In this document: positions 1,756-25,709 of the stretch, piece after piece
Numbering within the stretch: position 1 is the stretch's first letter
Layout: every line of letters starts with the position of its first letter
NCBI GenBank assembly: GCA_024278345.1
Contig: JAJRTK010000310.1
Coordinates: 1-32,563, forward strand
Length of the DNA stretch: 32,563 nucleotides
DNA from: a bacterium
GTDB taxonomy: Bacteria; CSSED10-310; JAJRTK01
Reading direction: 5' to 3'
Translations under genes and position numbers: made by a program
Notes under the pieces: model-generated
Database searches by the model: none
What the model saw: only the letters and a program-made list of their open reading frames with translations
What the model was told of the DNA's origin: nothing

Positions 1756-4275
1756 TTGCAAAGGACGCGGCAGAAGAAGGGCTGGCTGGAGCGAAGCCTG
1801 GGGTTGAAGCCCCAGGATCGAGCTCCCGCCATGGTGTTGATGGTGACCGGAGCACTGCTCATCGCCGGGTACACGGTGGCGAAATCGGTGCGTGACTCTC
1901 TCTTTCTGGCCGCCTATCCCGCGGAGCGTTTGCCGCTGCTCCTCATCTCGCTAGCCTTACTGACGGCGCCGGTGGTTTCGGCCTACACGCGGATTTCCGG
2001 GCGCCTTGGCTTCCACATCTTGGCGCCCGGTTTCTACGGATTGGTGGCCCTGGGTTTTTTGTGCCTGGAAAGGCTCACCTTGGTGGTTTCGGGCTGGCCG
2101 GCCGTGCTTCTGTACTTCTATGTGAGTCTGCTGGGACTCCTAGCGGTGACACAGTTTTGGCTCATTGTGGGCTGGAGGTTCAACACCCGTGAGGCACGGC
2201 GGCTCATGGGCGTCATCGGTACAGGCAGCATCGTCGGGGGAATGGTGGGCGGAATCCTGGCCCAGGAACTGGGGAGGATCTTCCCGCCGGAGCGTCTCCT
2301 TTGGTTCGTGGCCGCCATCTTCGGGTGTGCCGGGCTGGCGTCCTGGTGGGTGACTCACCGCCACCAGCGGTCAAACCGAGACGCCCTATCCCCGACATCG
2401 GGGCGAGGCAACATGGCTTCTCCAGAACCGGCCCGGGGGACAGGAGTCGTCGCCGGCTTGAAGAAGGCGACCGATCATCCCTTGCTCCGCGGAATCGCGC
2501 TCCTTATCGGAATCTCCGTGATGCTGGGAACGCTGACCGACTACCAGCTCAAGGCGATGGCCAAGGCCACCTATCCCGACAAAGGGGATCTTGTGAGCTT
2601 TTTCGGTACCTACTATGCCGTGGCGGGGGTCCTGACTCTAGTGGTGCAGCTTGGCGTTACCCAGTTTCTGCTTCGGAGATGGAGCATTGTCGGCGGACTT
2701 TTCGCGATGCCCACGGGCCTCCTTGCCGGGTGCCTGGCGATGCTTGCGCACCCTGGAATCGCGACGGCAGCCATGCTCCGCGGCGCCGAGCAGGTGATTC
2801 GGAATTCCGCGTGGCGCTCCGCCTACGAGATCCTTTTTCTACCTCTTCCGGCAGAATTGCGAAAACAAACGAAACCGGTGCTCGATGTCTTCCTGGAGCG
2901 GAGCGCCGACGGCCTCGCGGGCCTGAGTATCCTGATCCTGGCCGGTGCCCTGGGAGTGACGCCCTGGGGCCTGACCTGGGTGACGCTCATCCTGGTGGTG
3001 CTGCTCGCCCTGGTGATCGCAAGGCTTCGCGACACCTACATCCAAACCCTGGAAACCAATCTCTCCGTAGCGGTCAACACGCCGGTCTCTCATTCTCCGG
3101 TCCTGGACGGCATGACTCTTCACACCTTGGAAATCCAGAGCGTCCCGGCAGGCGATCCAAGCCTTCTCCGATCGCTGGAAATCTCCCTCCATTCCGCTCG
3201 GATGAGCGACATGCCCATGGATCTCTTGCGCCATAGCTCACCGGAGGTTCGGGGGCGGGCGCTGGACATGCTCGATGCCTTCGGCAAGGGAAGGCCCCCC
3301 TCCCTGGCTCAAATCCGCGATCTTCGTGCCTTGGCGACGGAAGCGGCTGACAAAAAAAAGCTCACGCCGCGCAATCAACCCGAGACCGGGCAAAAACCCG
3401 TGCGGGAACGGCTTGGAACCATGGTCGATTCCCTCTGCCACGGAACCAGTAGTGAGCTGGCCGCAGTGGCCAGACAACTCTCCGGCAATCCGGATATCCG
3501 CCTGGCCTCCGCCGTCCTCCATGCCTTCGATGGCAATCGAAACAAGCGGCAACTTTTGGCTCCCGTTCTGCACGCCTACGGCACACAGATCGCCGGACTC
3601 CTGGGCGATCACCTGCTCCACCCGAAAACCAGCCTCCACCTCAAACGGCAGGCGGCCCGCCTGTTGGGCAAGCTGGATTCGCGGCTGGCCGAATTGGCCC
3701 TCGCCGAGGCCCTGACGGCAAACGATACCGAAGTTCGCCGCGCCGCCTCCGCGGCCCTCTACCAAATGCGTATCCGAGGCTTCGCCAAACCCATCGGCCA
3801 CCAAAAGCTGGCTCGACTGTTGAAACCGGAGCTCCGGCGAACCCGCTCTGTATGGGCGGCGGATACAGCTCTCCAAAGATCGGTGGATCCCAAGAGTTCC
3901 ACGGGGCCTCTGGCCATGAGCGTCAAGAAAAACAAGGCGCGCTCTCTCCGCCACCTCTTCCGGCTTCTGGGCCTCAGCTTCCCGCCCGAGGCAATCCAGG
4001 CATCCTATCGCGCTCTCACCGCCGGCAACGCCTCTGTAAGGGACCAAGCGTTGGAGTATCTCGACAACGTTCTCCCCGAGTCGATCCGGCAGCTCGTCTG
4101 GCCCTTCATCGACCCGGAACAGCGATGGACGGAAAAACCCAAGAATGAGAAACCGGAGGAAATCGCTAGACACCTCCTCCGCGCAGGCGTCACCATCGAG
4201 CTCTCCCCTGATATGATCGATCTTGGCCTGGAGCTCAGCGGCAACGATGATCCCCCTCGCGGTTCAGAAAGCTGA
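1756..4275 (+). CDS. ATP/ADP-carrier-like MFS transporter with C-terminal HEAT-like domain
   Basis: Residues 20-430 form about 12 hydrophobic segments. The first contains KSVRDSLFLAAYPAERLPLL, a signature of the nucleotide-carrier-like (TLC/NTT) branch of the MFS. A second family-typical stretch, NSAWRSAYEILFLPLP followed by KPVLDVFLERSADGLAGL, lies near residues 350-390. Residues 460-839 are soluble and helical, with repeated pairs such as LASAVLHAF and EVRRAASAALYQM that suggest HEAT-like repeats. The proposed start is TTG at 1756, with AGAGG at 1742-1746 nine bases upstream; an ATG at 1831 would cut into the first membrane segment. The substrate cannot be told from sequence, and many bacterial members of this architecture are uncharacterised. 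The 3' end overlaps the convergent kinase gene by 12 bp. Confidence 0.8.
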   Translation: MQRTRQKKGWLERSLGLKPQDRAPAMVLMVTGALLIAGYTVAKSVRDSLFLAAYPAERLPLLLISLALLTAPVVSAYTRISGRLGFHILAPGFYGLVALGFLCLERLTLVVSGWPAVLLYFYVSLLGLLAVTQFWLIVGWRFNTREARRLMGVIGTGSIVGGMVGGILAQELGRIFPPERLLWFVAAIFGCAGLASWWVTHRHQRSNRDALSPTSGRGNMASPEPARGTGVVAGLKKATDHPLLRGIALLIGISVMLGTLTDYQLKAMAKATYPDKGDLVSFFGTYYAVAGVLTLVVQLGVTQFLLRRWSIVGGLFAMPTGLLAGCLAMLAHPGIATAAMLRGAEQVIRNSAWRSAYEILFLPLPAELRKQTKPVLDVFLERSADGLAGLSILILAGALGVTPWGLTWVTLILVVLLALVIARLRDTYIQTLETNLSVAVNTPVSHSPVLDGMTLHTLEIQSVPAGDPSLLRSLEISLHSARMSDMPMDLLRHSSPEVRGRALDMLDAFGKGRPPSLAQIRDLRALATEAADKKKLTPRNQPETGQKPVRERLGTMVDSLCHGTSSELAAVARQLSGNPDIRLASAVLHAFDGNRNKRQLLAPVLHAYGTQIAGLLGDHLLHPKTSLHLKRQAARLLGKLDSRLAELALAEALTANDTEVRRAASAALYQMRIRGFAKPIGHQKLARLLKPELRRTRSVWAADTALQRSVDPKSSTGPLAMSVKKNKARSLRHLFRLLGLSFPPEAIQASYRALTAGNASVRDQALEYLDNVLPESIRQLVWPFIDPEQRWTEKPKNEKPEEIARHLLRAGVTIELSPDMIDLGLELSGNDDPPRGSES

Positions 4276-5955
4276 GCGACCGGAAGTCGTGGAGATAGGC
4301 CGACCGGCACACGGACTCTTGTCCGGCGCGTTCTTCTTCCACCAGCTAAGGGCCTCTTCATAGTTCCAGCCGCCCCATTCAGGCGTGGAACGGAGGGCGC
4401 TCCTAAAGTCCTCCGCCCTTGGATAGCGCTGGTCGGGCTCCTTTTCCAGGGCGGCCAAGATTACGGCATCCAGCTTCTCCGACAACTCGACGCCCAGCGC
4501 CCGCAAGGAACGTGGCTGGGTCCTTGCGTGATCGATGAGGGCTTCCACGGGGTTCTTCGAGTCGAACACGGGATGGCCGGCCAACAGGAAATAGCCCACG
4601 GCGCCCACGGAATAGAGATCGGAACGGTGATCGATGGGGCGGTCTCCGTAAAACATCTCCGGCGCCATGTACAACGGAGTGCCCGTAATGGATCCATCGG
4701 CGGTGAGCCCTGCCTCTGATTCCATCCCCGCTCCCTGGATCTGCTTCACGAGGCCGAAGTCAAGGACCTTGACGAAATCATAGTCGCCGCCGCGCTCAGC
4801 CAAGAAAACATTGCTGGGCTTGATGTCCCGGTGCAGCAGACCCCGCCGATGCGCCTCACCCAGCGATGCCAGGGCCTGGTCCAGGATGAAGACGACCCTG
4901 GCTGCCGCAACGGCACCAAACTGCTCCACCAGATCCTGCAAATCCATCCCCTCCAAGAACTCCATCGCGTAATAAAAACGCCCCGAATCGGTCTTCCCGT
5001 AATCGTAAATAGAGATGGTGTTGGGATGCGTCAGCTCGCTGGCCGAATGCACTTCCCGCTCGAACCGGCTCAACGCCGTGGGCGAATCAAGCAGCTCGGG
5101 CCGCAACATCTTGATGACCGTCGGTCTTTGAAGCAGCGCGTGGCGAGCGCGATAGACCTCGCCCATGCCGCCCTCACCAATTCTGTCTTCCAGCCGATAG
5201 TTACCCGCCATTTCCGCATCAAAAGCCTGGCGCCTCAGTCCGGCAAAGTAGTGGACCGCAACGAGCCCCACCGCCAGGTGCAGCCCGATATTCAGATTCC
5301 CAAAACCAAAGAGACCCCACAGTTCAGGGTCTTGGAAATCGGTGGCAAGCTGCGGAACAAACCAGGCACCCACCAGAGCCGTCACGGGATAAAAGGCCCA
5401 AAGCCCCAGGCCAAAGCCAAAACTCATTTTCGGGTTGCAGGGCACGAACACGGCGCGGAGCAGGACGATGATGGCCGCCGCATCGTAAAAAGGGCCCTTC
5501 AACCCCATGATGAGCATGGGCATCGACACGAAAAGGAAGCTGTTCTCCAAAAAGAAAACCAACTCCAGGATGCGCGCCCGAACAACAGTTCCAGCCCAAC
5601 CGCTCTTAAAGGCGAAGTAAATACCCAGGTTGAGCAAAAAGCCAAAGAAATCCACCAAGATCTTCAGCGTGGCATGCCTCTCTCCCACCCGCTGGAGATC
5701 TGGCAAAATGAACGGGCTCACCAGAGCCGCCACCAGACAACTCACCGCCGCAATCAGCGCAACCACGCGCATTCGCTCGTTGTGAAGCTGAAGAACGTCC
5801 GGACCACTGGGCGTCGATCCATGCATGATACAGCGCGTCTTGCACTTCTCTCCGAGCCCAGATCCCCGACTCCCGGAGCGGGACTCCCCCAAGCTCTCAA
5901 GCCTCGTCAAAGTCTCAAGGTCGCCCCCCTGGTTCTTGCGCGTCGTGTCACTCAC
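4264..5955 (-). CDS. Membrane-anchored Hanks-type Ser/Thr protein kinase
   Basis: The 563-residue protein has a polar N-terminus, about six hydrophobic segments at residues 62-240, and then a complete C-terminal kinase domain at about 253-520. Visible motifs are the glycine loop GEGGMGEVY (260-268), catalytic Lys282, HRDIKPSN (375-382), DFG (399-401) and the APE motif in GTPLYMAPE (425-433). All key residues for phosphotransfer are present. The membrane part sits on the N-terminal side, unlike PknB-type kinases where a single helix follows the kinase, so it may be the sensor. The GTG start at 5955 is preceded by AGGAGG with eight-base spacing, which decides the start. The gene is divergent from rlmD and convergent with the transporter. 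No substrate is suggested by context. Confidence 0.9.
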   Translation of the reverse strand: MSDTTRKNQGGDLETLTRLESLGESRSGSRGSGLGEKCKTRCIMHGSTPSGPDVLQLHNERMRVVALIAAVSCLVAALVSPFILPDLQRVGERHATLKILVDFFGFLLNLGIYFAFKSGWAGTVVRARILELVFFLENSFLFVSMPMLIMGLKGPFYDAAAIIVLLRAVFVPCNPKMSFGFGLGLWAFYPVTALVGAWFVPQLATDFQDPELWGLFGFGNLNIGLHLAVGLVAVHYFAGLRRQAFDAEMAGNYRLEDRIGEGGMGEVYRARHALLQRPTVIKMLRPELLDSPTALSRFEREVHSASELTHPNTISIYDYGKTDSGRFYYAMEFLEGMDLQDLVEQFGAVAAARVVFILDQALASLGEAHRRGLLHRDIKPSNVFLAERGGDYDFVKVLDFGLVKQIQGAGMESEAGLTADGSITGTPLYMAPEMFYGDRPIDHRSDLYSVGAVGYFLLAGHPVFDSKNPVEALIDHARTQPRSLRALGVELSEKLDAVILAALEKEPDQRYPRAEDFRSALRSTPEWGGWNYEEALSWWKKNAPDKSPCAGRPISTTSGRSAF

Positions 5956-9969: not shown

Positions 9970-12693
9970 TCACTCATGGCGGAGCGCTTCGATGGGATCG
10001 AGGTTGGCGGCCCTGTTGGCTGGGTAAAGGCCGAAGAAGATGCCCACGGTTCCGGTGAGTCCCAAGCTGAGAAAGACCGACCAGGGTTGGACCGATGCAG
10101 GCACGGGGCTGAAACGCCCCACCAGGGCGGCAAGCCCGAAGCCGAAGGCGAGGCCGATGAGCCCTCCGACGATGGAGATGGTCACCGCTTCCACCAGGAA
10201 CTGCCACAGGATGTGGAAGCGGCGGGCGCCCAGGGCTTTGCGCACCCCGATTTCCCGGGTTCTTTCCGCCACCGCCATGAGCATGATGTTCATGATGACG
10301 ATGCCGGCCACCACGGAGGCGATGGCCACAATCAGGATGAGAACGATGAAGATGCCGCGAGACACGGACTCCCAGAGATCGAGCATCGCCTCGGAGGTGA
10401 CGATGGCGAAATCGTTTTCATGGCCGGGTCGGAGGCGATGGCGGACTCGCATGAGGCCGACGGCCTCTTGTTCAGTCTTCTGGAGCCCATCGAGCTCCCG
10501 TGCCACCACGGGGATCGTCAGGGATCGGCGGGCGCCGAAGAGCTTCTGGAAGGTGGTGATGGGAATTTGGGCAAAGAGATCGCGGTTTTCTCCCAGGACC
10601 ATTCCTTGCTCGGCGGCGAGGCCCTGGACGACGAACCTCCGGCCGGCAATCCGGATTGTCTTGCCGATGGGATCGGTGGAGGGAAAAAGCTCATCGCGCA
10701 CAGCCTGGCCGATGATGGCCACCGATCTCCGGTGGGTGGTTTCGAAGAGCGCCAGATGGCGGCCAGCGACAATCTCCAAGGGTTGGATTTCGTTGTATAC
10801 GGCGCTTCGTCCCTCGACCTTGACGCCTGAAAGGGAGCGGGAACCGGCGCGGACCTCGCTTTCAGCGGTGTCCTTCGCACCGACGGCACGTGCCCGGGTG
10901 AGTTCCCTTCGCAGATAGCGAACATCCTCCATGGTCAAGATGGGATTTTTTAGTGCTTTCACATATTTGTCCGGGTCAGTAAGAAACTCCAGTTTGTTGA
11001 GGCGCTGGAGCTCAAACACGCCGGTTCCCTTGTCGGCGATCTGCTCCTTGACGTATCTGTTGACCCCGTCAATCACGGCGACGACGGCGATGAGGCTCAT
11101 GACGGCAACGACGTTTCCAAGGAGCGTCAAGACCGAGCGGAGCTTGTTGTACCACAAGACCCATAGAGCGATGCGAACGCCTTCCACCAGAACCACAAAG
11201 CTCTGCGCTCGCTGCCGAAGCGCCGGGATCAGGCCAGGCGCCTCGGACAAGCGATCGACCGCGGCCGCCCGCGGGGCGGCACGTTTTCCTTCCGGCGCCC
11301 CGGGAAAGAGGGATGGCGGCCTTCCCTTTCGGGAAACCGGTGCCGGAGAGCTTTTTCGCAACGTGGCCGGCACCGCTGTCAATCGGGCCTTGGACTCTCC
11401 TTGGGTTCTTGAAGGTTCCTTGGCCGAGGCTTTGGGAGCGGCGGTGGGTCCCCTGGAGGCTTCGCGCCGTCTACCCTTTGGAGGCCCAGGAACCTGTTTC
11501 CGTTTCCGGAGCCGGGCCTTACGGCGCCTTGCCTTGGCGAGGCGACGCGCTTCCTCCTTCGGAAGCAGGCACACATACCCGTTTTTCCGAAGACTCTTCA
11601 ACGTTGCCTCGATGCGTTCCGGCGAGCGCTCCTTACTGAGGGGCAACTCCCCGAGCGCGGTTTCTCCGTCGATCTGGGTGATGAGCACGAGCTCATCCAT
11701 GTTGAGGCCGGCAAGAGAAAGGGCTTTGAGATCGACTCCTTCGCCAAGAACGGGAATCAGCTCTTCTTCCGCGATCTTCTTGTCGGCCGCCGCGCCGGGT
11801 TCTCGGGGAGGCGCAGGGGTTTCGCCAGCAGTGCGCTCCCCCGGAACCGGCTTTGGCTTCGCGGAGTGAGCCCGTTTTCGCCTCCTTCGCTTGTGGAGCG
11901 GGCGATCCGTTTCTCCCACGATTTCTGCCAGCCCCTGGCGCAGAAAGCGGGCCATGGCGTGCATGAGTGCGATGTGGTTTTTTCGGCCCGCAAGGATCTC
12001 CGAGACAGGCCGAGTGCCATCCAGGAGCGCCAAGAGCCGCCGCTGTCCCCTGTTGAGCCGCGAATAGTCTTCCGTCTTGTGAGCGCCGGGTCTACGGCGA
12101 AGCAAGAGCGTCGGGCCGCGGAACTTCTCGTAGAGAGCGGGCCAGACCTTCCTGTGGCGCAGCAGCCGGGCAAACATTTCCTCGTCCACCCAGAGAGCCT
12201 CGGCCTCCATCTCCTCGGAAGGGATGGGCTCGAAGACGATCCGCCCTTCATCAGCCCTGATGATGGAATCAAGAAGGGTCTCTGTCCGGTGGTACAAGAT
12301 CTCTCGGAGAGCCGTGAGGTCCATGAGGCCCACGTCCACCAGGTGCTGGTGGAAAAAGCGTTTTCGGCGCCTGGCTTCTTTTAGCGCGTGGGTGGCCTGC
12401 TTCTTAGTCAGGATCTTCCTGCGAACCAGAAATTCCCCCAACCTTTGCCCGGGGTGGCTCGAGGTGGCGAACAAGAGTTTCCCCTGCAAGAAGAGGAACC
12501 TGATGATGCGGGGTACGGGCTTTTCCCCAGTCCGATTGGCGAGCTTCTCCTTGACACGGTGGGCGGTTCTTCCCGGCGCGTTCTTCTCTTCGAACCTGAG
12601 CTCCCCGGTGGCGCGTGTGGTGCATAGCTCGGCTATCATGGTCAAGACGCCTCGGGTCTTATGCTCACGGGCCGGAACCACAGTCCACCTCAC
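9970..12693 (-). CDS. DUF4388-like domain fused to MacB/FtsX-type ABC permease
   Basis: This 907-residue protein joins two modules. Residues 19-265 resemble DUF4388/PATAN proteins, with ATGELRFEEK, a GKLLFATSSHPGQRLGEFLV segment, paired helices and TLLDSIIRADEGRIVFEPI. Two winged-helix-like segments follow (about 214-260 and 328-377). A very basic, Pro/Ala-rich linker spans about 378-480. Residues 500-907 are a complete MacB permease: first helix near 520-540, periplasmic domain with DPIGKTIRIAGRRFVVQG, and C-terminal FtsX domain with RTREIGVRKALGARRFHILW. The N-terminal module should lie in the cytoplasm and could regulate transport; that is inference. Start choice is uncertain. GTG 12693 lacks a good ribosome site, whereas ATG 12639 follows GAGG by ten bases and begins just before the domain. 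An upstream AAGGAGG-ATG at 12789 is in the same frame but blocked by TAG at 12709-12711. Confidence 0.8.
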   Translation of the reverse strand: MRWTVVPAREHKTRGVLTMIAELCTTRATGELRFEEKNAPGRTAHRVKEKLANRTGEKPVPRIIRFLFLQGKLLFATSSHPGQRLGEFLVRRKILTKKQATHALKEARRRKRFFHQHLVDVGLMDLTALREILYHRTETLLDSIIRADEGRIVFEPIPSEEMEAEALWVDEEMFARLLRHRKVWPALYEKFRGPTLLLRRRPGAHKTEDYSRLNRGQRRLLALLDGTRPVSEILAGRKNHIALMHAMARFLRQGLAEIVGETDRPLHKRRRRKRAHSAKPKPVPGERTAGETPAPPREPGAAADKKIAEEELIPVLGEGVDLKALSLAGLNMDELVLITQIDGETALGELPLSKERSPERIEATLKSLRKNGYVCLLPKEEARRLAKARRRKARLRKRKQVPGPPKGRRREASRGPTAAPKASAKEPSRTQGESKARLTAVPATLRKSSPAPVSRKGRPPSLFPGAPEGKRAAPRAAAVDRLSEAPGLIPALRQRAQSFVVLVEGVRIALWVLWYNKLRSVLTLLGNVVAVMSLIAVVAVIDGVNRYVKEQIADKGTGVFELQRLNKLEFLTDPDKYVKALKNPILTMEDVRYLRRELTRARAVGAKDTAESEVRAGSRSLSGVKVEGRSAVYNEIQPLEIVAGRHLALFETTHRRSVAIIGQAVRDELFPSTDPIGKTIRIAGRRFVVQGLAAEQGMVLGENRDLFAQIPITTFQKLFGARRSLTIPVVARELDGLQKTEQEAVGLMRVRHRLRPGHENDFAIVTSEAMLDLWESVSRGIFIVLILIVAIASVVAGIVIMNIMLMAVAERTREIGVRKALGARRFHILWQFLVEAVTISIVGGLIGLAFGFGLAALVGRFSPVPASVQPWSVFLSLGLTGTVGIFFGLYPANRAANLDPIEALRHE

Positions 12694-18648: not shown

Positions 18649-20076
18649 TCAGTGACCCGTAGTAAGCGGGGGATACCCAAGGCGCTGAAGCTCCTTGTTG
18701 GCAGTTTTGCTCCACATTTTGAAATGGGGCAACTTGCGTCCGTTGAGGAAGAGCGTGGGCGTGCCACTGACTCCGCCATCGTGCCCTTCCCTGATCTGGG
18801 CCTGCAACCGAGCCAGAGTCTGGGAGGAATTCATACACTTCTTGAAGGAGGAGGAATCCATCCCAAGCTGGGTAGCAATGTCGGTCACGCTATTCACGTC
18901 GGGCATTCTACCTAACCCGGCAAAGACCTTATCCTGGTAATTGCTGAACCGATCTTGCTCAGCGGCACAGATCCCGCCCAAGGCCAACATGCAGCTTCCA
19001 GAGCTCTTGCGCCGTTTGACATTGGGGTTACAAGCGGGATCTAGGGGATAGTTCTTATAGAAGATCTGGATCCGATCTTTGATCATGGGCAAATAGAAAC
19101 GCATACTTTTGTGGAGATCTCGGCAGTGGCTGCAAAGGTAGTCGAAGAACTCCACTATTTTCACGGGGGCGTTGCTGGCCCCTTTGGAGGGCACGCCGTC
19201 CAGATCGAACTGAAGACGGTCCGACGCCTCGAACTCCTGCATGGACTTTTTGACGTAGTATTCATTGACCTTTGTGGGGTCGTCGAGGATTTTCTTGAGC
19301 TCATCGGCTTGCCGCCGGGCCGCAACGGCTTGCTGCTTGTAGGTTTCCACCTGCCGCGCAAGGTCTTCGTTTCCTCCGGTCGATACGGGCGACGAGATCA
19401 AGTTGGCAAAGGGATCGCTTGATTCCAGGGCCGCCTGGCCATCTGACGAAGCTGTAGAAGAGCCAAGAAGCTCCCCGGGATCTCCCAAAATGCTCAAAGC
19501 CCGCTCTGTCTCTCGAAGATCGAGAGCTGCCTCGCCAGCACCGACAGCCGCGACCAACCCGAGAAGCGAAAAGAGCCAACCGGCCATGAGGAGCCGTCCC
19601 GAAGTTTCCAGCATTGCCTTCCGCGGAAACTTTTGCTTCCGAACGGGCCAAATAAGCGCAAAGGAAACCCCACCAAGAGCATAGGTGGCGATGCAGAGTT
19701 TGCAGAAGCTGCCGATGGCAAAGGCCTGGAGCGCAAATAAAAGGAGATCGACAAGCAGCGCCAGAGCCAAGAAAAGCAAGACGATCCAGCTCGCGGCGAG
19801 TGCGGCGGGGGCGGGAGCCGTCAAAGCCAGGAGCAAGAGGATCGCCATGGAGCTGTAGAAGACGATTCCCAGTCCGGCAAGGGGAACGCCCGCGACTTCT
19901 GAATAGACGCTCTGGTTGACCTCGTTACAGCCTGTCTCTTGGGCTTCTCCGCAAAGTTGGTTGACCGCGGCGACGGCCTCACCTTCTCCATGGTGCTGAA
20001 AAAGAAGCAAACCGGAAATACCTGCTCCCAGAAGAAGCAGAACGATTACGACAATCTTGCGCCATTTGCTGATCAT
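18649..20076 (-). CDS. VKOR-DsbA fusion, disulfide-bond-forming protein
   Basis: The 475-residue protein joins an integral VKOR domain (about residues 5-150) to a periplasmic thioredoxin-like DsbA domain (about 285-475). VKOR features are the loop cysteines Cys42 and Cys50, the GVPLAGLGIVFYS segment, and the active-site Cys125-Lys-Leu-Cys128 at a helix end. A further helix (about 165-180) and an Ala/Glu-rich linker (230-275) lead to the DsbA domain, with FFDYLCSHCRDLH (Cys315, Cys318) and the cis-Pro motif SGTP (Pro440). Such fusions oxidise exported proteins by passing electrons from DsbA through VKOR to quinone, replacing DsbB. AAGG lies four bases upstream of ATG 20076. The gene follows the TPR/J gene by 34 bp in the same direction. 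Confidence 0.9.
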   Translation of the reverse strand: MISKWRKIVVIVLLLLGAGISGLLLFQHHGEGEAVAAVNQLCGEAQETGCNEVNQSVYSEVAGVPLAGLGIVFYSSMAILLLLALTAPAPAALAASWIVLLFLALALLVDLLLFALQAFAIGSFCKLCIATYALGGVSFALIWPVRKQKFPRKAMLETSGRLLMAGWLFSLLGLVAAVGAGEAALDLRETERALSILGDPGELLGSSTASSDGQAALESSDPFANLISSPVSTGGNEDLARQVETYKQQAVAARRQADELKKILDDPTKVNEYYVKKSMQEFEASDRLQFDLDGVPSKGASNAPVKIVEFFDYLCSHCRDLHKSMRFYLPMIKDRIQIFYKNYPLDPACNPNVKRRKSSGSCMLALGGICAAEQDRFSNYQDKVFAGLGRMPDVNSVTDIATQLGMDSSSFKKCMNSSQTLARLQAQIREGHDGGVSGTPTLFLNGRKLPHFKMWSKTANKELQRLGYPPLTTGH

Positions 20077-20110: not shown

Positions 20111-21418
20111 TCACCCGCTACCCTGTATCAGCTTCAAATACCGTTTGCGCATATCCGAATCAGAAAGAACCTCGAAAGCCAACCGTAGACTCTCGAAACG
20201 CTGGAAGCTGGTATCGGGCGGAGAGCGCCGCAAAGCCGAAAAATACGCGGACTGAACCTGTTCTGGCCCATCGCTGGGAGATATTGACAACAGGGCAAAG
20301 GGATCGGAGTTCCGCCGAAGTCGGCCTCGTTCCCGGTCCTCGTTTTCTCTCAACAAACGTTTGAACTCGTCACGACTCGCCCTTTGGGCAACAACGGAAA
20401 GACGAAGGTAGCATTCAGGAAGAGTCTCCGATGCACCGGCGCGCAACAAACATTCCATCGCTTCATAGAACGAATGCTCCGCCAACTTCCGCCTGTCCAG
20501 ATGCACGTAGGAGAAGTCCCCCTCCAAAAGCCAGTTTTCACCGGCCATTTGAAGATAGAGGCGTCTCTGTCCGGAATCGCTGCAATAGTTGGCGGCCTCC
20601 AGAGCCATCTCGGCGGCGGAAGCGTATTCGCGAAACCTCTTGGCATAGTGGATGAAGTCGTCGTAGTAACCCAAGACCCGATGCTCTGGCTCGGCGGAGA
20701 ACCGGGCGACCCTCATCGCCCAGATGAGGCCGCATGCGATGCTTTCGTAGGTTCCCTTGCAATGGCCGATATGGGCAATGGCCAGGTAGATCCTCCGGCT
20801 TTTCTGGAGGCTACCCTGCCTTTCGGACTTGGCGGCCATGGAATCGAGCCGCTGTAAAGCGGCACGGTACAGCTTGGCGGCCTCCTTCAAACGGCCAAGC
20901 CGATCATGGCAGAAGGCGATCTCGGTCATGACTTTTGAAGCATGCTCCTCTTCCATCTGGTGCAGGGCATCGGTTTCTAGCCAACGTTCCCAGCAACGGA
21001 CGGCCTCCAAAAACCGCCCGCTCTGCCGATAGCTACGGGCCGCCAAGATCCATTCCTCAGCCGCGGAATAAGCGTCTCCCGCCAGATAGTATGCCCGAAG
21101 CTCCCGATATTGGTGGCCAGCTTCAAGAAAGTCGCCCCGGGCAAGATAAACCCTCACCAAGTCCCTGGAGGAGCTAGATTTTTCGAAACATCCAAGCGCC
21201 TCGTCAAAGTGGCCTCGCGCCTCAAAGAGGCAGCCCATCTTTCTATGCGCCCGAACCTCATTGCGAATATCCCCGCGACTCCGATAGTATCTGATTCGCA
21301 ACCTCATGGTAAGAATGCGGAGTTGATCGACCAGGCTCAAGACTCCCAGGGCGAGGCGAGGAGCGGCTGGCCTGTATTCTTCATTCTTGGTGACCAGTCC
21401 ATTCTGGAATTGCTCCAC
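20111..21418 (-). CDS. TPR-like helical-repeat protein with degenerate C-terminal J-domain
   Basis: About 435 residues, mostly tandem helical hairpins of TPR type (for example HRKMGCLFEARGHFDEALGC, YLARGDFLEAGHQYRELRAY and CHDRLGRLKEAAKLYRAAL). The last 64 residues read like a J-domain: DPFALLSISPSDGPEQVQSA, then FESLRLAFEVLSDSDMRKRY. However, the HPD tripeptide that activates DnaK is replaced by PPD in LRRSPPDTSF, so it may be a scaffold rather than a true co-chaperone. GTG 21418 is preferred because GGAAGGAGG lies seven bases upstream; the frame is also open from TTG 21466, six bases past the kinase stop. It follows the TPR-kinase gene and precedes VKOR-DsbA in the same direction. Function is unknown; a role assembling kinase targets is only inference. 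Confidence 0.75.
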   Translation of the reverse strand: MEQFQNGLVTKNEEYRPAAPRLALGVLSLVDQLRILTMRLRIRYYRSRGDIRNEVRAHRKMGCLFEARGHFDEALGCFEKSSSSRDLVRVYLARGDFLEAGHQYRELRAYYLAGDAYSAAEEWILAARSYRQSGRFLEAVRCWERWLETDALHQMEEEHASKVMTEIAFCHDRLGRLKEAAKLYRAALQRLDSMAAKSERQGSLQKSRRIYLAIAHIGHCKGTYESIACGLIWAMRVARFSAEPEHRVLGYYDDFIHYAKRFREYASAAEMALEAANYCSDSGQRRLYLQMAGENWLLEGDFSYVHLDRRKLAEHSFYEAMECLLRAGASETLPECYLRLSVVAQRASRDEFKRLLRENEDRERGRLRRNSDPFALLSISPSDGPEQVQSAYFSALRRSPPDTSFQRFESLRLAFEVLSDSDMRKRYLKLIQGSG

Positions 21419-21472
21419 GGCAACGCCTCCTTCCCGTCGGTCCAATCTTGCCAATCGCCGATCCAATCTTCT

Positions 21473-23716
21473 CTATTCAGTCATTTTACCAGCTTCAGGC
21501 CAGATCCACTGTGTATCGAGAAACGGATCGAGGCACCCGAAGAGAACCGTCCCGTCGGGCAGCCGCCGCACCGCGGAAGCCAGACTTTCCAGCTCGGCTC
21601 CCCGCCACCAGCCAGTCCCCCGTAGCCCCATTTGACGGCCAATCTCCTCCAGCAGCTCCTGGACAACCGTTGGCCTGGTATCTCCAGGCAAGTCATCCCC
21701 GCTCACCCAACAAACCCGACCGGTCTCGAAGTCCACTTCCACAATCAGGGGCAAGAGTGATGGCGAAGTGGCCAACAACAGATCCAGGCGCTTCCTCCGC
21801 CCCCCACTGGGTACATAGGTCCTTTCCATTAGAATGCGCCCGAGCCAATGATCCCTCAGCCGCCGATAGCCTCCGAGTTGATCCGTGCCCTGTGCCAAGA
21901 GCTCGAACCGAGGCTCGGGGAACCGCCCGCCAGAGACTGGCTCCGCTGTGCCAATTTCCCCCACCGGCGGCTCCCATGCCATTTGGCCGGGCGGATGTCC
22001 GGGCAGTGCAGTCTCATCCCCTGGCTCTCCCAACTCCCAACTCGCCTCGGACAGGAGCTGGGCGGCTTCTTTAGCCGATGCTGGACGGTCCAAAGGGTCG
22101 AGAGCCATCAACGAGAAGATGGCCTCCTCCAGGGAACAACTCAGTCGCCGCCCCTGGCAAAGGGGCAGTCGCGGAACACCTCCAAGCTGGTCCCGCACAA
22201 GATCCCGCCCAGAAAAAGGCGGACGCCTGCAGAGCATCTCATACAGGACGACTCCCAAGGCGTAGAGATCCGCCTGCGTCGTCACCCGCTCTCCTCGGAG
22301 CTGCTCAGGTGCAAGATAGCCATAGGTGCCAATGACCGTTCCAGTTTTGGTCCAGGAAGAATCCAACACGTGGGCAACCCCAAAATCGCCTATTTTCAGT
22401 CGCCCCCCTGCATCGAAGAGGAGGTTTCCCGGCTTGAGATCGCGGTGGACAATCCCTTCGAAATGGACTCGCTCGATTCCGGCCAGTGCCTGCAAGATCC
22501 ATCTCCGAATGACGGCTAGGGGAATTGGACTTCGCTGGATCCGCTTCTCCAGGGTCCCCCCAGTCATGAGCTCCGCGGCGATATAGCGGCCTCGGAGCCC
22601 GGTTTCATAGATTTGGACGATATTGGGGTGGCGCAGCCTCGATACCAGGCGTGCCTCCAGCAAGAATCTGTGGAGTGCCTCGGGGCGTTCTTCAAGGCCG
22701 GGGCGAAGCCGCTTGAGAGCGACCCAACGCCCCGACCACCAATCCAAGGCCCTGTAAACAACGGAGCTCGCCCCCTCACCAAGACGTTCCACAAGCTTGA
22801 AATGGCCCAGCTCCCCCAGTCCGGCAGACTCCGCGCCGAAGGGAAGATCGAGTGGCTCCAGATGGAATCGCCGGGGACTTCCCCAAGACTCAGATCCTGG
22901 ATCGGATCGGTGTTCGCCTGTTTCTGACCTGGGGGCCAAGAGATTTTTCCGCTCTGGAAGAGCCCGGATCCGTAGTGCCATGTGACGAGCCGCCTTCGGT
23001 AAGCCCATCCGTTCAAACCCCCAAGAAGCCAGCTCCAAGGCATCTCTGTTGTGCGGCGCCCCCCGCAGAATCGTCTGAGCCTCGGCGACGGCTTCCCGTT
23101 CCCGCCCGGCCCGGAGTAGCAAGTGGCCCAAGAGCGCCCGCGCTTCCATGTCATCGGGTGCCTCGATGAGATGGCGTTTCAAAAGTAGTCCCGCCTCGCC
23201 GACATCCCCGGCGGCAGCAAGCTGGAACGCGGCCTCCAAGAACCATCCGGACTGTAGGAAAAGGCGGCTCGCTTCCCGGTGCTCTCCGGCAACGGCCAGG
23301 AGGTCCGCCGCGCGGCCCAGCCACCCCAAGGAGCTCAGCAGCCGAGCCACGGTGTTCGGGCTCCAACCCGCTTCTAGGAGCAGGGCCGCCTCGGCGACGG
23401 AGATGAGCTCCGTGAGATTTCCCTCTGCCGCCAATCGAAGAGCCCGTTCGCCGGCGCCGCAACGAAGGGCCAACTGACAGGCGGTTTTCAGGTCACCCGC
23501 TAGCTCATAAGAATCGATGGCCCGTTCCCAAAGTTCGGCGGTCTCGAACTTGGCAGCGGCAGCTAGGGGTTCGCCGCGCCTGAGCAGAGCCTCGGCTTCG
23601 GGCAAGGTCTCTTTGGATCCGGTTTCCAAAGGCATGATCCCTTCTTTTTCCAATCCAACCATCTGAGTTCCAGGCAGGCGTTTTGTCGCGGCACGGAGAG
23701 TCCGAACTATATCCAA
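21473..23716 (-). CDS. Ser/Thr protein kinase with N-terminal TPR-like repeats and novel C-terminal region
   Basis: The 747-residue protein has three parts. Residues 36-250 are Ala/Leu/Glu-rich helical repeats of TPR type. Residues 306-575 are a Hanks-type kinase with GEGASSVVY (313-321), Lys335, HRDLKPGN (424-431), DFG (444-446) and an APE motif in YGYLAPEQL, so it should be active. Residues 600-747 form a C-terminal region with mixed hydrophobic strands (LPLIVEVDFETGRVCWVSGD) that I do not recognise. No membrane segment is seen, so it is probably cytosolic. TPR before the kinase is less common than kinase-TPR order. The start is uncertain: TTG 23716 has no clear ribosome site, and ATG 23662 or 23635 are alternatives. 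It lies three bases after the small TPR gene and six bases before the TPR/J frame, indicating one operon. Confidence 0.85.
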   Translation of the reverse strand: MDIVRTLRAATKRLPGTQMVGLEKEGIMPLETGSKETLPEAEALLRRGEPLAAAAKFETAELWERAIDSYELAGDLKTACQLALRCGAGERALRLAAEGNLTELISVAEAALLLEAGWSPNTVARLLSSLGWLGRAADLLAVAGEHREASRLFLQSGWFLEAAFQLAAAGDVGEAGLLLKRHLIEAPDDMEARALLGHLLLRAGREREAVAEAQTILRGAPHNRDALELASWGFERMGLPKAARHMALRIRALPERKNLLAPRSETGEHRSDPGSESWGSPRRFHLEPLDLPFGAESAGLGELGHFKLVERLGEGASSVVYRALDWWSGRWVALKRLRPGLEERPEALHRFLLEARLVSRLRHPNIVQIYETGLRGRYIAAELMTGGTLEKRIQRSPIPLAVIRRWILQALAGIERVHFEGIVHRDLKPGNLLFDAGGRLKIGDFGVAHVLDSSWTKTGTVIGTYGYLAPEQLRGERVTTQADLYALGVVLYEMLCRRPPFSGRDLVRDQLGGVPRLPLCQGRRLSCSLEEAIFSLMALDPLDRPASAKEAAQLLSEASWELGEPGDETALPGHPPGQMAWEPPVGEIGTAEPVSGGRFPEPRFELLAQGTDQLGGYRRLRDHWLGRILMERTYVPSGGRRKRLDLLLATSPSLLPLIVEVDFETGRVCWVSGDDLPGDTRPTVVQELLEEIGRQMGLRGTGWWRGAELESLASAVRRLPDGTVLFGCLDPFLDTQWIWPEAGKMTE

Positions 23717-23719
23717 CGG

Positions 23720-24127
23720 CTACCGGTTGAAAAGAGGCGCCCCGTAAAATTCGAGTTCTTCGTCGATCCAGGCCTTCATCTCGGGATCCTCGGCACTCCA
23801 GCGCCTGGCCTCCTCCAAGAGGATTTTGATCTTGCGGTATTCACCTTTTCCCTGAAGCTCCATGGCTTCTTGGAACAAGTCGTATGCCCTGCCCTCCGAT
23901 TTCACTTTTGCCAGCTCCTCCGCCAGGGAGGGGTGAGTTTCCAAGACTCGCAGAGCTTCCCGGTATCGCCGCATACGGCGATAAGCATAGGCCAGCCAAT
24001 AGGCGCATTCACATTCATTGCCCACCGATTCCGACAGCTCCTCCAGCATCTCGGCCACCATGCCATAACGGCGAAATGACAACATTTTCAGGGCTTCATT
24101 CAGTTTTTGAGCCGTGTCCTGGTCCAT
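23720..24127 (-). CDS. Small TPR-like hypothetical protein
   Basis: This 135-residue soluble protein consists of helical hairpins with TPR-like spacing (CAYWLAYAYRRMRRYREALR near 40-60; YDLFQEAMELQGKGEYRKI near 82-100). It ends in an acidic helix. It carries no catalytic motif. ATG 24127 has a GGTGGGA element upstream. It sits between the VWA gene (154 bp upstream) and the TPR-kinase (3 bp downstream), so a partner or adaptor role for either is possible but unproven. Confidence 0.65.
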   Translation of the reverse strand: MDQDTAQKLNEALKMLSFRRYGMVAEMLEELSESVGNECECAYWLAYAYRRMRRYREALRVLETHPSLAEELAKVKSEGRAYDLFQEAMELQGKGEYRKIKILLEEARRWSAEDPEMKAWIDEELEFYGAPLFNR

Positions 24128-24281
24128 ATCATGGTCCCACCCGATATGATGGTGTTCTTCGTAAAGGCAATGGGTTCATCGGTCAATCAGTGGGCGAGCA
24201 GTGTGTGGCGGCTGCCACGCGATGGGAGCGGAAGGCAACCCAAAGAAAGAAGATCGATGGGTAGCCAGGGGCAACCCTTTT

Positions 24282-25709
24282 TCAAGAAAACTCCTCCAAC
24301 ACCGCCCGGGCCGATGCGACCCGGCGAGCGCCACCTCTGAGGTCTTGCTCCTGCACAATACGGTATCGGTCCAGGAGATGGAGGTTTGCGGGGGCGATAT
24401 CAATCCTGGAAGGAAACAGGATAATGCCTACGATCCGGGCCAGTTTCCGGGCTTCCAAAAGGAGATCCGCCGGCAGGGAGCATTCGTGGTGTGTGATCAT
24501 CACCACCTCGATGAAAGGTTCGGTCCGCTTGAGCTGATCAAGGTGAACCAACAGCTCTTGGAAACAGCGTGCCATGTCCCTGGGTCCGTCGGCCTCGATT
24601 CCGATGGCGGCCGGCAGATTGAACTCGCTGGAAGCAAGGTCGAAGAGCTGGTGCAACCGGGCGTCGAAATAGCGGAAGAGCACATGATGTCCCTTGAGGA
24701 GAGATCGTTTGGCAAGAGCCAAAGCCAGCCCTCGGGCGAAGACAAACCGCCGGCCGCGCATGGAGGCGCTGGAGTCCACCAACAGGTAAGAAGCGTGCTC
24801 TCGGCGCGGCTCCTCCCTGAGCCGGGAAGTGTAGTAGAGTTCCTGATCGAGGAGTTTTTGAAGAAAGATCTCCTGGTCCCAGGCAAGCTCCGTGGGCAGA
24901 AGGGTATCCAAAGACCCGGAGCGAGCCAATCCGGCAACGCCATTGATACTGAAGGATTGCTCCGCTCTGGGATGCTTGGTTTCGTAGAGCGAGGGCAATA
25001 ACTCCATGGAAAAGCTTACGACATCGGCAATCTGAGGTGCAGAAAAGAGCCGCCACAGATCGGCCAGATCTTCCATGGGACTCCGCAGTCGCGAGGGAAA
25101 GGCGGCCAGGAGGCGGAGCGTATCGATGTCCACTCGATTGATACTTGTGGAGACGAGCAACTCGTGGTGGTGGAGAAACCGCACGAACTCCAGTAAGGAG
25201 TCGGAGTCAGATTGCGCGAGGCCCGCGGCAAAGGCGTTGGCGTGCTGAGAAGTCGCCTCCGGAAAGTAGGAAAGGCGCGCTTCCGAGTCGAACTTCTTGC
25301 CTCCGTCACTGGCCCAAGCCATTTGTGGTAGCTTGAGAATCTTCGCCAAGAGGATCCCTAGCACTCGATCGTCCAAACGCCAGGAGGCGATACGCTGAAC
25401 AGCGGGCATCTCTGAAAGGCGGACAAGAAAGTGGCGATAACTGACGATAGCCGAAAGGTCGAGCTTCGAGAGGGTAAAGCGGCGCAACACCTCCCGCCGC
25501 TCCATGATGACGCAAGATCCGCCAGGAGTCGCGGACAGCAGTGCTCCCAAATCATGGAGCAAGAAGATGGGGATTCGGATCCCCAGAAAGCGGCAGATCC
25601 TGTGCCAAAGAACGAGGCGACGGTAGTGCTCAAAGCTCTCCATAAAGACGGCTGAGAACGCCATGGCACCCAAGATTTCGGCCGCCTCTTGGGGGAGCGT
25701 CGTTTCCAT
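24282..25709 (-). CDS. VWA-domain protein (CoxE/ViaA-like)
   Basis: 475 residues from ATG 25709, which has GGAG eight bases upstream; the frame is open for 136 more codons but those overlap the preceding gene. Residues 1-290 are largely helical, with the segments LFSAPQIADVVSF and LLDQELYYTSRLREEP. Residues 303-475 form a von Willebrand A domain with the metal-binding DSSAS (312-316) followed by MRGRRFVFARGLALALAKRS, a hydrophobic HVLFRYFDARLHQLFD strand and a late RIVGIILFP strand. The helical-N, VWA-C layout resembles CoxE and ViaA proteins, which usually pair with a MoxR-type AAA ATPase, but no such ATPase is in the window. Neighbouring TPR and kinase genes suggest a protein-complex assembly or signalling role, which is inference. 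Confidence 0.75.
   Translation of the reverse strand: METTLPQEAAEILGAMAFSAVFMESFEHYRRLVLWHRICRFLGIRIPIFLLHDLGALLSATPGGSCVIMERREVLRRFTLSKLDLSAIVSYRHFLVRLSEMPAVQRIASWRLDDRVLGILLAKILKLPQMAWASDGGKKFDSEARLSYFPEATSQHANAFAAGLAQSDSDSLLEFVRFLHHHELLVSTSINRVDIDTLRLLAAFPSRLRSPMEDLADLWRLFSAPQIADVVSFSMELLPSLYETKHPRAEQSFSINGVAGLARSGSLDTLLPTELAWDQEIFLQKLLDQELYYTSRLREEPRREHASYLLVDSSASMRGRRFVFARGLALALAKRSLLKGHHVLFRYFDARLHQLFDLASSEFNLPAAIGIEADGPRDMARCFQELLVHLDQLKRTEPFIEVVMITHHECSLPADLLLEARKLARIVGIILFPSRIDIAPANLHLLDRYRIVQEQDLRGGARRVASARAVLEEFS

Follow-up and report, generated by a model that had tools for sequence, protein, structure and literature searches.

A VWA protein and its TPR partner as probable parts of a dispersed MoxR–VWA system

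The VWA protein and the TPR protein with a J-like tail (TPR-J) encoded in the window, the 32,563-nucleotide stretch of DNA analysed here, probably form the VWA and TPR scaffold of a MoxR–VWA remodelling system whose bpMoxR, 283-aa protein and fvmX7 protein lie at a separate locus, on another contig of the assembly, C20. Sequence comparison and genomics established the family membership of these proteins, their co-retention, their neighbour relations in other genomes and the dispersed layout of their genes. Because of this co-retention, these neighbour relations and the position of TPR-J as the top match to the partner-family profile, we regard the VWA and TPR-J proteins as components conserved in a MoxR–VWA system whose genes are dispersed. 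By sequence, the system is kin to the FtsH ternary systems that Kaur et al. 2020 (PMC7159879) described, but it usually lacks the FtsH.

The four genes and their surroundings

Four minus-strand open reading frames with close spacing were confirmed, as described in the earlier note on this DNA; they are transcribed in the order VWA, small TPR, TPR-Ser/Thr kinase and TPR-J, spanning 25709 to 20111 (Table 1). The intergenic gaps along this run are 154, 3 and 6 bp, the last becoming 27 bp with a later start, and codon use is coding-like in all four genes. A CDP-alcohol phosphatidyltransferase gene on the same strand ends 47 bp before the set, and a VKOR-DsbA gene, also on the same strand, starts 34 bp after TPR-J; since the same-strand run goes on at both sides, the limit of four genes is our choice and marks no operon boundary. 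A scan for promoters and terminators gave nothing informative.

Several other genes of the window drew our attention. The VKOR-DsbA-type fusion occupies 18649-20076 (minus strand), and a VKOR-like gene also adjoins the VWA gene in locus L075. At 1756-4275 (plus strand), a TLC-type ATP/ADP transporter domain (PF03219, just over the cut-off) and C-terminal HEAT-like repeats are found in one protein. A MacB/FtsX-type permease with a fused N-terminal DUF4388 region (9970-12693, minus strand) is adjoined by genes for a second MacB-type permease, an ABC ATPase and an HlyD-type protein, and a second Ser/Thr kinase, with hydrophobic segments resembling membrane spans, is encoded at 4264-5955 (minus strand).

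Table 1 Coordinates of the four genes and of the domains and motifs within their products
Feature	Position	Strand	Basis or remark
VWA protein, 475 aa from ATG	24282..25709	-	ORF; predicted helical N-terminal region and C-terminal vWA domain
GSLD motif, residues 265-268 of VWA protein	24906..24917	-	Common to VWA proteins of FtsH-type and MoxR-linked systems
MIDAS motif D312-S-S-A-S316 of VWA domain	24762..24776	-	Family conservation
Small TPR protein, 135 aa	23720..24127	-	Pfam TPR-type matches below cut-off
Cytosolic TPR-Ser/Thr kinase, 747 aa	21473..23716	-	Pkinase E=1.7e-48 and weak TPR
Kinase C-terminal region, type unassigned, 188 residues	21476..22039	-	Apparently lineage-specific
TPR-J protein, 451 aa	20111..21466	-	TPR_2 E=6.8e-11; kin of conserved VWA-downstream TPR/HEAT partner
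Conserved core of VWA-partner family in TPR-J	20351..21085	-	Profile positions 100-345
J-like domain, residues 388-443 of TPR-J, PPD for HPD	20138..20305	-	PF00226 22.5 bits, cut-off 27.8

The VWA family and the retention of its partners

Searches of Pfam, NCBIfam, PADLOC and PDB sequences gave no match to the window VWA protein; it is recognised as a VWA protein by its DSSASM MIDAS and, weakly, by its predicted fold. The structure model was of low confidence (mean pLDDT 41.8), as were our models generally, meaning that the vWA fold assignment alone was used, as support; fold matches included NorD and the MDN1 MIDAS, and the N-terminus was predicted to be helical. The MIDAS is nearly invariant in the family (DxSxSMRG), with D312, S316, M317, R318 and G319 kept in 42/42 members and S314 in 41/42; G265 and D268 are also kept in all 42, and the GSLD motif is present in a Chloroflexota VWA-FGE protein too. 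We rejected membership of the CoxE family (PF05762), to which the protein had no match at E<=1; the four PF05762 matches of the host genome are on other contigs. The earlier label of 'CoxE/ViaA-like' is therefore withdrawn in favour of kinship with the VWA proteins of MoxR ternary-type systems. The broader connection drawn in that note between this VWA protein and MoxR-type ATPases is upheld, as the nearest relatives of the family are MoxR partners.

Relatives proved sparse outside one phylum. Among 98 diverse genomes, one other carried a VWA relative, that of Candidatus Oscillochloris fontis, where the gene is in an operon with an FtsH-type AAA, a bpMoxR (E=7.8e-73) and fvmX7 (E=5e-18); the VWA and fvmX7 families were found in the identical two genomes of these first 98. 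On a second Chloroflexaceae contig, the VWA gene adjoins that of an fvmX7 protein. A profile search with the two-sequence alignment returned only two loci, both in Chloroflexota, and 201 Chloroflexota genomes contained one VWA relative. In a sample widened to 386 genomes, the only additional full-length homologue was that of G452 (34% identity over 416 alignment columns, E=4e-55), and 44 of 284 genomes of the phylum of G452, which is probably myxobacterial (Myxococcota) to judge by size, GC and kinase content, have homologues at E<1e-60. The Oscillochloris protein (L007:9786-12074), encoded in a full FtsH-type operon, has lost its MIDAS (LVQLGDAM) and carries a fused FGE-sulfatase domain; the VWA gene of G452 is adjoined by a very long open reading frame (L034:12219-19901; >2,500 aa, open at its end); and a 689-aa open reading frame (L090:5765-7834), lying 4 bp before another VWA gene, has matches to a kinase domain as well as to an FGE-sulfatase domain.

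The retention of fvmX7 follows that of the VWA gene closely. fvmX7 was found at E<1e-40 in 45/284 genomes, including all 44 VWA carriers (Fisher p=4.6e-51, with shared ancestry ignored), and in 25 of these 44 the two genes are on different contigs. The lone genome with fvmX7 and no VWA gene (G834) has a MoxR match on the same contig as fvmX7, and that contig stops early; a broken contig is thus a possible cause of the exception. With genes in the GC-rich loci of relatives called by codon-usage scoring, the conserved order was found to be fvmX7, ~380-aa protein, MoxR, VWA and TPR/HEAT. Of 41 VWA neighbourhoods, 18 include MoxR; the remainder are for the most part split, with a few truncated where the contig ends. 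In split genomes that do not belong to family f273, fvmX7, the intervening gene and MoxR often stay together (L123, L125, L128-L130), as on C20, and all 16 genomes of f273 in which the VWA gene stands apart retain a MoxR with 49-54% identity to that of C20; the split genomes tested for MoxR encode it elsewhere. In one five-contig assembly (G682), MoxR, fvmX7 and VWA occupy a contig each (L116 on C2, L079 on C3, and C1). The retention of these genes together despite their lack of linkage suggests that their products form a stable complex whose client is constant.

The gene directly downstream of VWA in 23 of 41 loci, often overlapping it by 4 bp, encodes a TPR/HEAT protein of ~600 aa that has a TPR-type core and, at its C-terminus, HEAT repeats (HEAT_2); the window TPR-J protein clusters with these 23. 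As TPR proteins match one another easily, we chose a genome-wide test, running a profile of 14 such downstream proteins, containing no window sequence, on the whole host genome. TPR-J was the best match (E=4.5e-15; next 6.7e-4), and the matched region includes a stretch unlike the plain TPR consensus (YYDDF...AKR...EYASAAEM). In sequence terms, TPR-J is a genuine partner of the window VWA protein. The C-terminal HEAT repeats of the family are not found in TPR-J, which has the J-like tail in their place; its TPR_2 match, sub-cut-off DnaJ match and PPD motif agree with its earlier description as a TPR protein with a degenerate J-domain. We rejected a function as a DnaJ J-domain protein, both for the low score and because HPD, here PPD, is needed to stimulate Hsp70.

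MoxR on contig C20 and comparison with known systems

The host genome encodes one strong bpMoxR, on contig C20 (E=4.7e-77 to 8.7e-77; next best 6e-13), whose P-loop, GPPGTAKS, has the GxxxTAKS form that the text of Kaur et al. reports for the MoxR of FtsH and beta-propeller ternary systems (PMC7159879). It clusters on C20 with genes for the 283-aa protein and fvmX7 (E=3.6e-10), beside which no VWA gene was found; these two proteins group with the ~380-aa and fvmX7 neighbours of VWA in relatives. The C20 MoxR is a sequence-level orthologue of the MoxR that adjoins this VWA family elsewhere. The earlier note held MoxR to be absent, and this is true of the window; with an orthologue encoded on C20 of the same assembly, however, no replacement of the ATPase is required.

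The assembly is a draft of 550 contigs, 88% complete, so that the assignment of C20 and the window to one organism comes from binning and composition and not from a finished chromosome. The tetranucleotide composition of C20 correlates with that of the window at r=0.96, as does that of other contigs of the bin, compared with 0.38-0.67 for other genomes. Mirror distances correlate overall (r 0.91-0.94, with no species-tree control), although not for the host sequences alone. Family membership and co-occurrence together suggest a link between C20 and the window.

The N-terminal half of the FtsH component was undetected in the host (88% complete) and in 10 of the 12 VWA-bearing relatives that were tested, a one-contig genome among them, indicating that most tested carriers retain the gene set without FtsH. 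In one relative (G770), the FtsH component shares its contig with a second fvmX7 match and so probably belongs to a separate canonical system. We found no FtsH-less variant described in the text of Kaur et al. 2020 (PMC7159879).

The system shares with the FtsH ternary systems, as the text of that paper presents them (MoxR-vWA subsystem 3, PMC7159879), a bpMoxR with a GxxxTAKS P-loop, fvmX7 and a divergent vWA protein, whose N-terminal region is here predicted to be helical in a low-confidence model, and its nearest named VWA relative, that of Oscillochloris, sits in an operon of the FtsH ternary type. It differs from them, on the same account, in that no double-AAA FtsH was detected in the host or in 10/12 tested genomes, and in its conserved TPR/HEAT (TPR-J) partner, its spread over two to three loci and its intact MIDAS. 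With the beta-propeller MoxR-vWA ternary systems (subsystem 4 in that text, PMC7159879) it has in common a related MoxR beside distant VWA kin, the match covering the GSLD-motif region; in contrast to these, the window VWA protein ends with its vWA domain at 475 aa, with no propeller and no Pfam match. Like NorQ/NorD (PMC9976466) and RavA/ViaA, it joins a MoxR ATPase to a VWA partner bearing an N-terminal domain and a MIDAS; in NorQ/NorD the client is contacted by the MIDAS, which NorQ binding does not require (PMC9976466). Those pairs are, however, of different families, each with known clients. We know of no fvmX7 or TPR partner in either.

Proposed mechanism and the place of the kinase

By analogy with NorQD and RavA-ViaA, a MoxR hexamer (ring) would engage the VWA protein, and the intact MIDAS of this adaptor would, as in studied MoxR-VWA pairs, bind an acidic site on the client. 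The energy of ATP hydrolysis would then reach the client through the VWA protein, and the client would be remodelled or assembled. The TPR protein, as a platform for client or partner, and fvmX7 may select or dock the client; fvmX7 and the ~380-aa protein would be further constant parts of the machine. The kinase and small TPR protein, inserted between VWA and its TPR partner in the host lineage, may act as a gate on the machine, through phosphorylation or through TPR contacts, although this is a guess.

The kinase looks catalytically active, with VALK (catalytic Lys), HRDLKPGN and DFG, the Hanks-type motifs, all intact. Its C-terminal region had only marginal matches in 385 other genomes (E 0.002-0.009), consistent with its earlier description as a TPR-kinase whose C-terminal region is of no recognisable type. 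We rejected its PADLOC matches (mad6, PD-T4-6) as evidence of defence; they are generic and cover the kinase domain only. No relatives of the small TPR protein were found in the 41 VWA neighbourhoods, and its match to the N-terminus of the partner protein was too marginal (E=0.045) for us to consider it a split-off piece. The four genes had been proposed as a single module, to be judged by co-occurrence of their families; VWA and TPR(-J) are indeed neighbours in many genomes, but neither the small TPR protein nor the TPR-kinase was found as a conserved VWA neighbour in the 41 neighbourhoods, and the arrangement was found in the host genome only. From their position inside the VWA/TPR-J pair, the two are possible regulators of the MoxR-VWA system.

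A stronger form of this idea, compatible with the dispersed MoxR-VWA system, is that they are its dedicated regulators and make it a lineage-specific, kinase-gated one; this we consider plausible, though short of probable. The two genes are enclosed by a pair of conserved partners and have downstream gaps of 3 bp and 6 bp, and kinases of other architectures adjoin the system elsewhere: 21 bp from fvmX7 in L088, 4 bp before VWA in L090, 15 bp after TPR/HEAT in L103 (with FHA) and, as a TPR-kinase (divergent), in L092. Kinases make up 5/164 near genes and 1/258 far genes, but this difference is weak (p=0.035, uncorrected) and the loci are related; moreover, adjacency comes cheaply in kinase-rich genomes, and the arrangement is known from one genome.

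That the system is an anti-invader conflict system, the role proposed for ternary systems in the text of Kaur et al. (PMC7159879), is unlikely. Homology to FtsH-type ternary components as given there (PMC7159879) favours it, but the loci have no obvious variable effector genes next to them, FtsH is usually absent, and the core set is almost perfectly co-retained in lineage-typical neighbourhoods, a pattern that looks more like a stable cellular function than a conflict system.

That unrelated VWA, TPR and kinase genes came together by chance is improbable: such TPR and kinase genes are common, and the small TPR and kinase genes are not conserved neighbours, but the conservation of VWA with its TPR partner in 23/41 loci and the genome-wide rank of TPR-J refute it for the VWA and TPR-J pair. 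Scarcely credible is the MoxR-free module of the earlier note, in which kinase and TPR scaffold stand in for the ATPase in controlling assembly of a complex; the close spacing of four genes on one strand, the intact motifs of the kinase and a window without MoxR had spoken for it, but the same assembly encodes an orthologous MoxR-X-fvmX7 cluster, the split genomes tested retain MoxR elsewhere, and the kinase is not a conserved neighbour of VWA.

The dispersed MoxR-VWA system could in its fullest form be a previously undescribed five-part FtsH-less machine (MoxR, VWA, fvmX7, the ~380-aa protein and TPR/HEAT or TPR-J), co-retained yet dispersed, with a stable cellular job other than defence and gated by a kinase in the host lineage; as a whole, this tentative picture is somewhat unlikely. 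A false lead, the MoxR-free kinase module, is replaced by a specific and testable system, and the window proteins are now assigned to specific candidate partners. In 44 genomes of one phylum the families are retained as a set, often with their genes at a distance from one another, and this co-retention bears on the question of whether all MoxR-vWA ternary systems serve defence.
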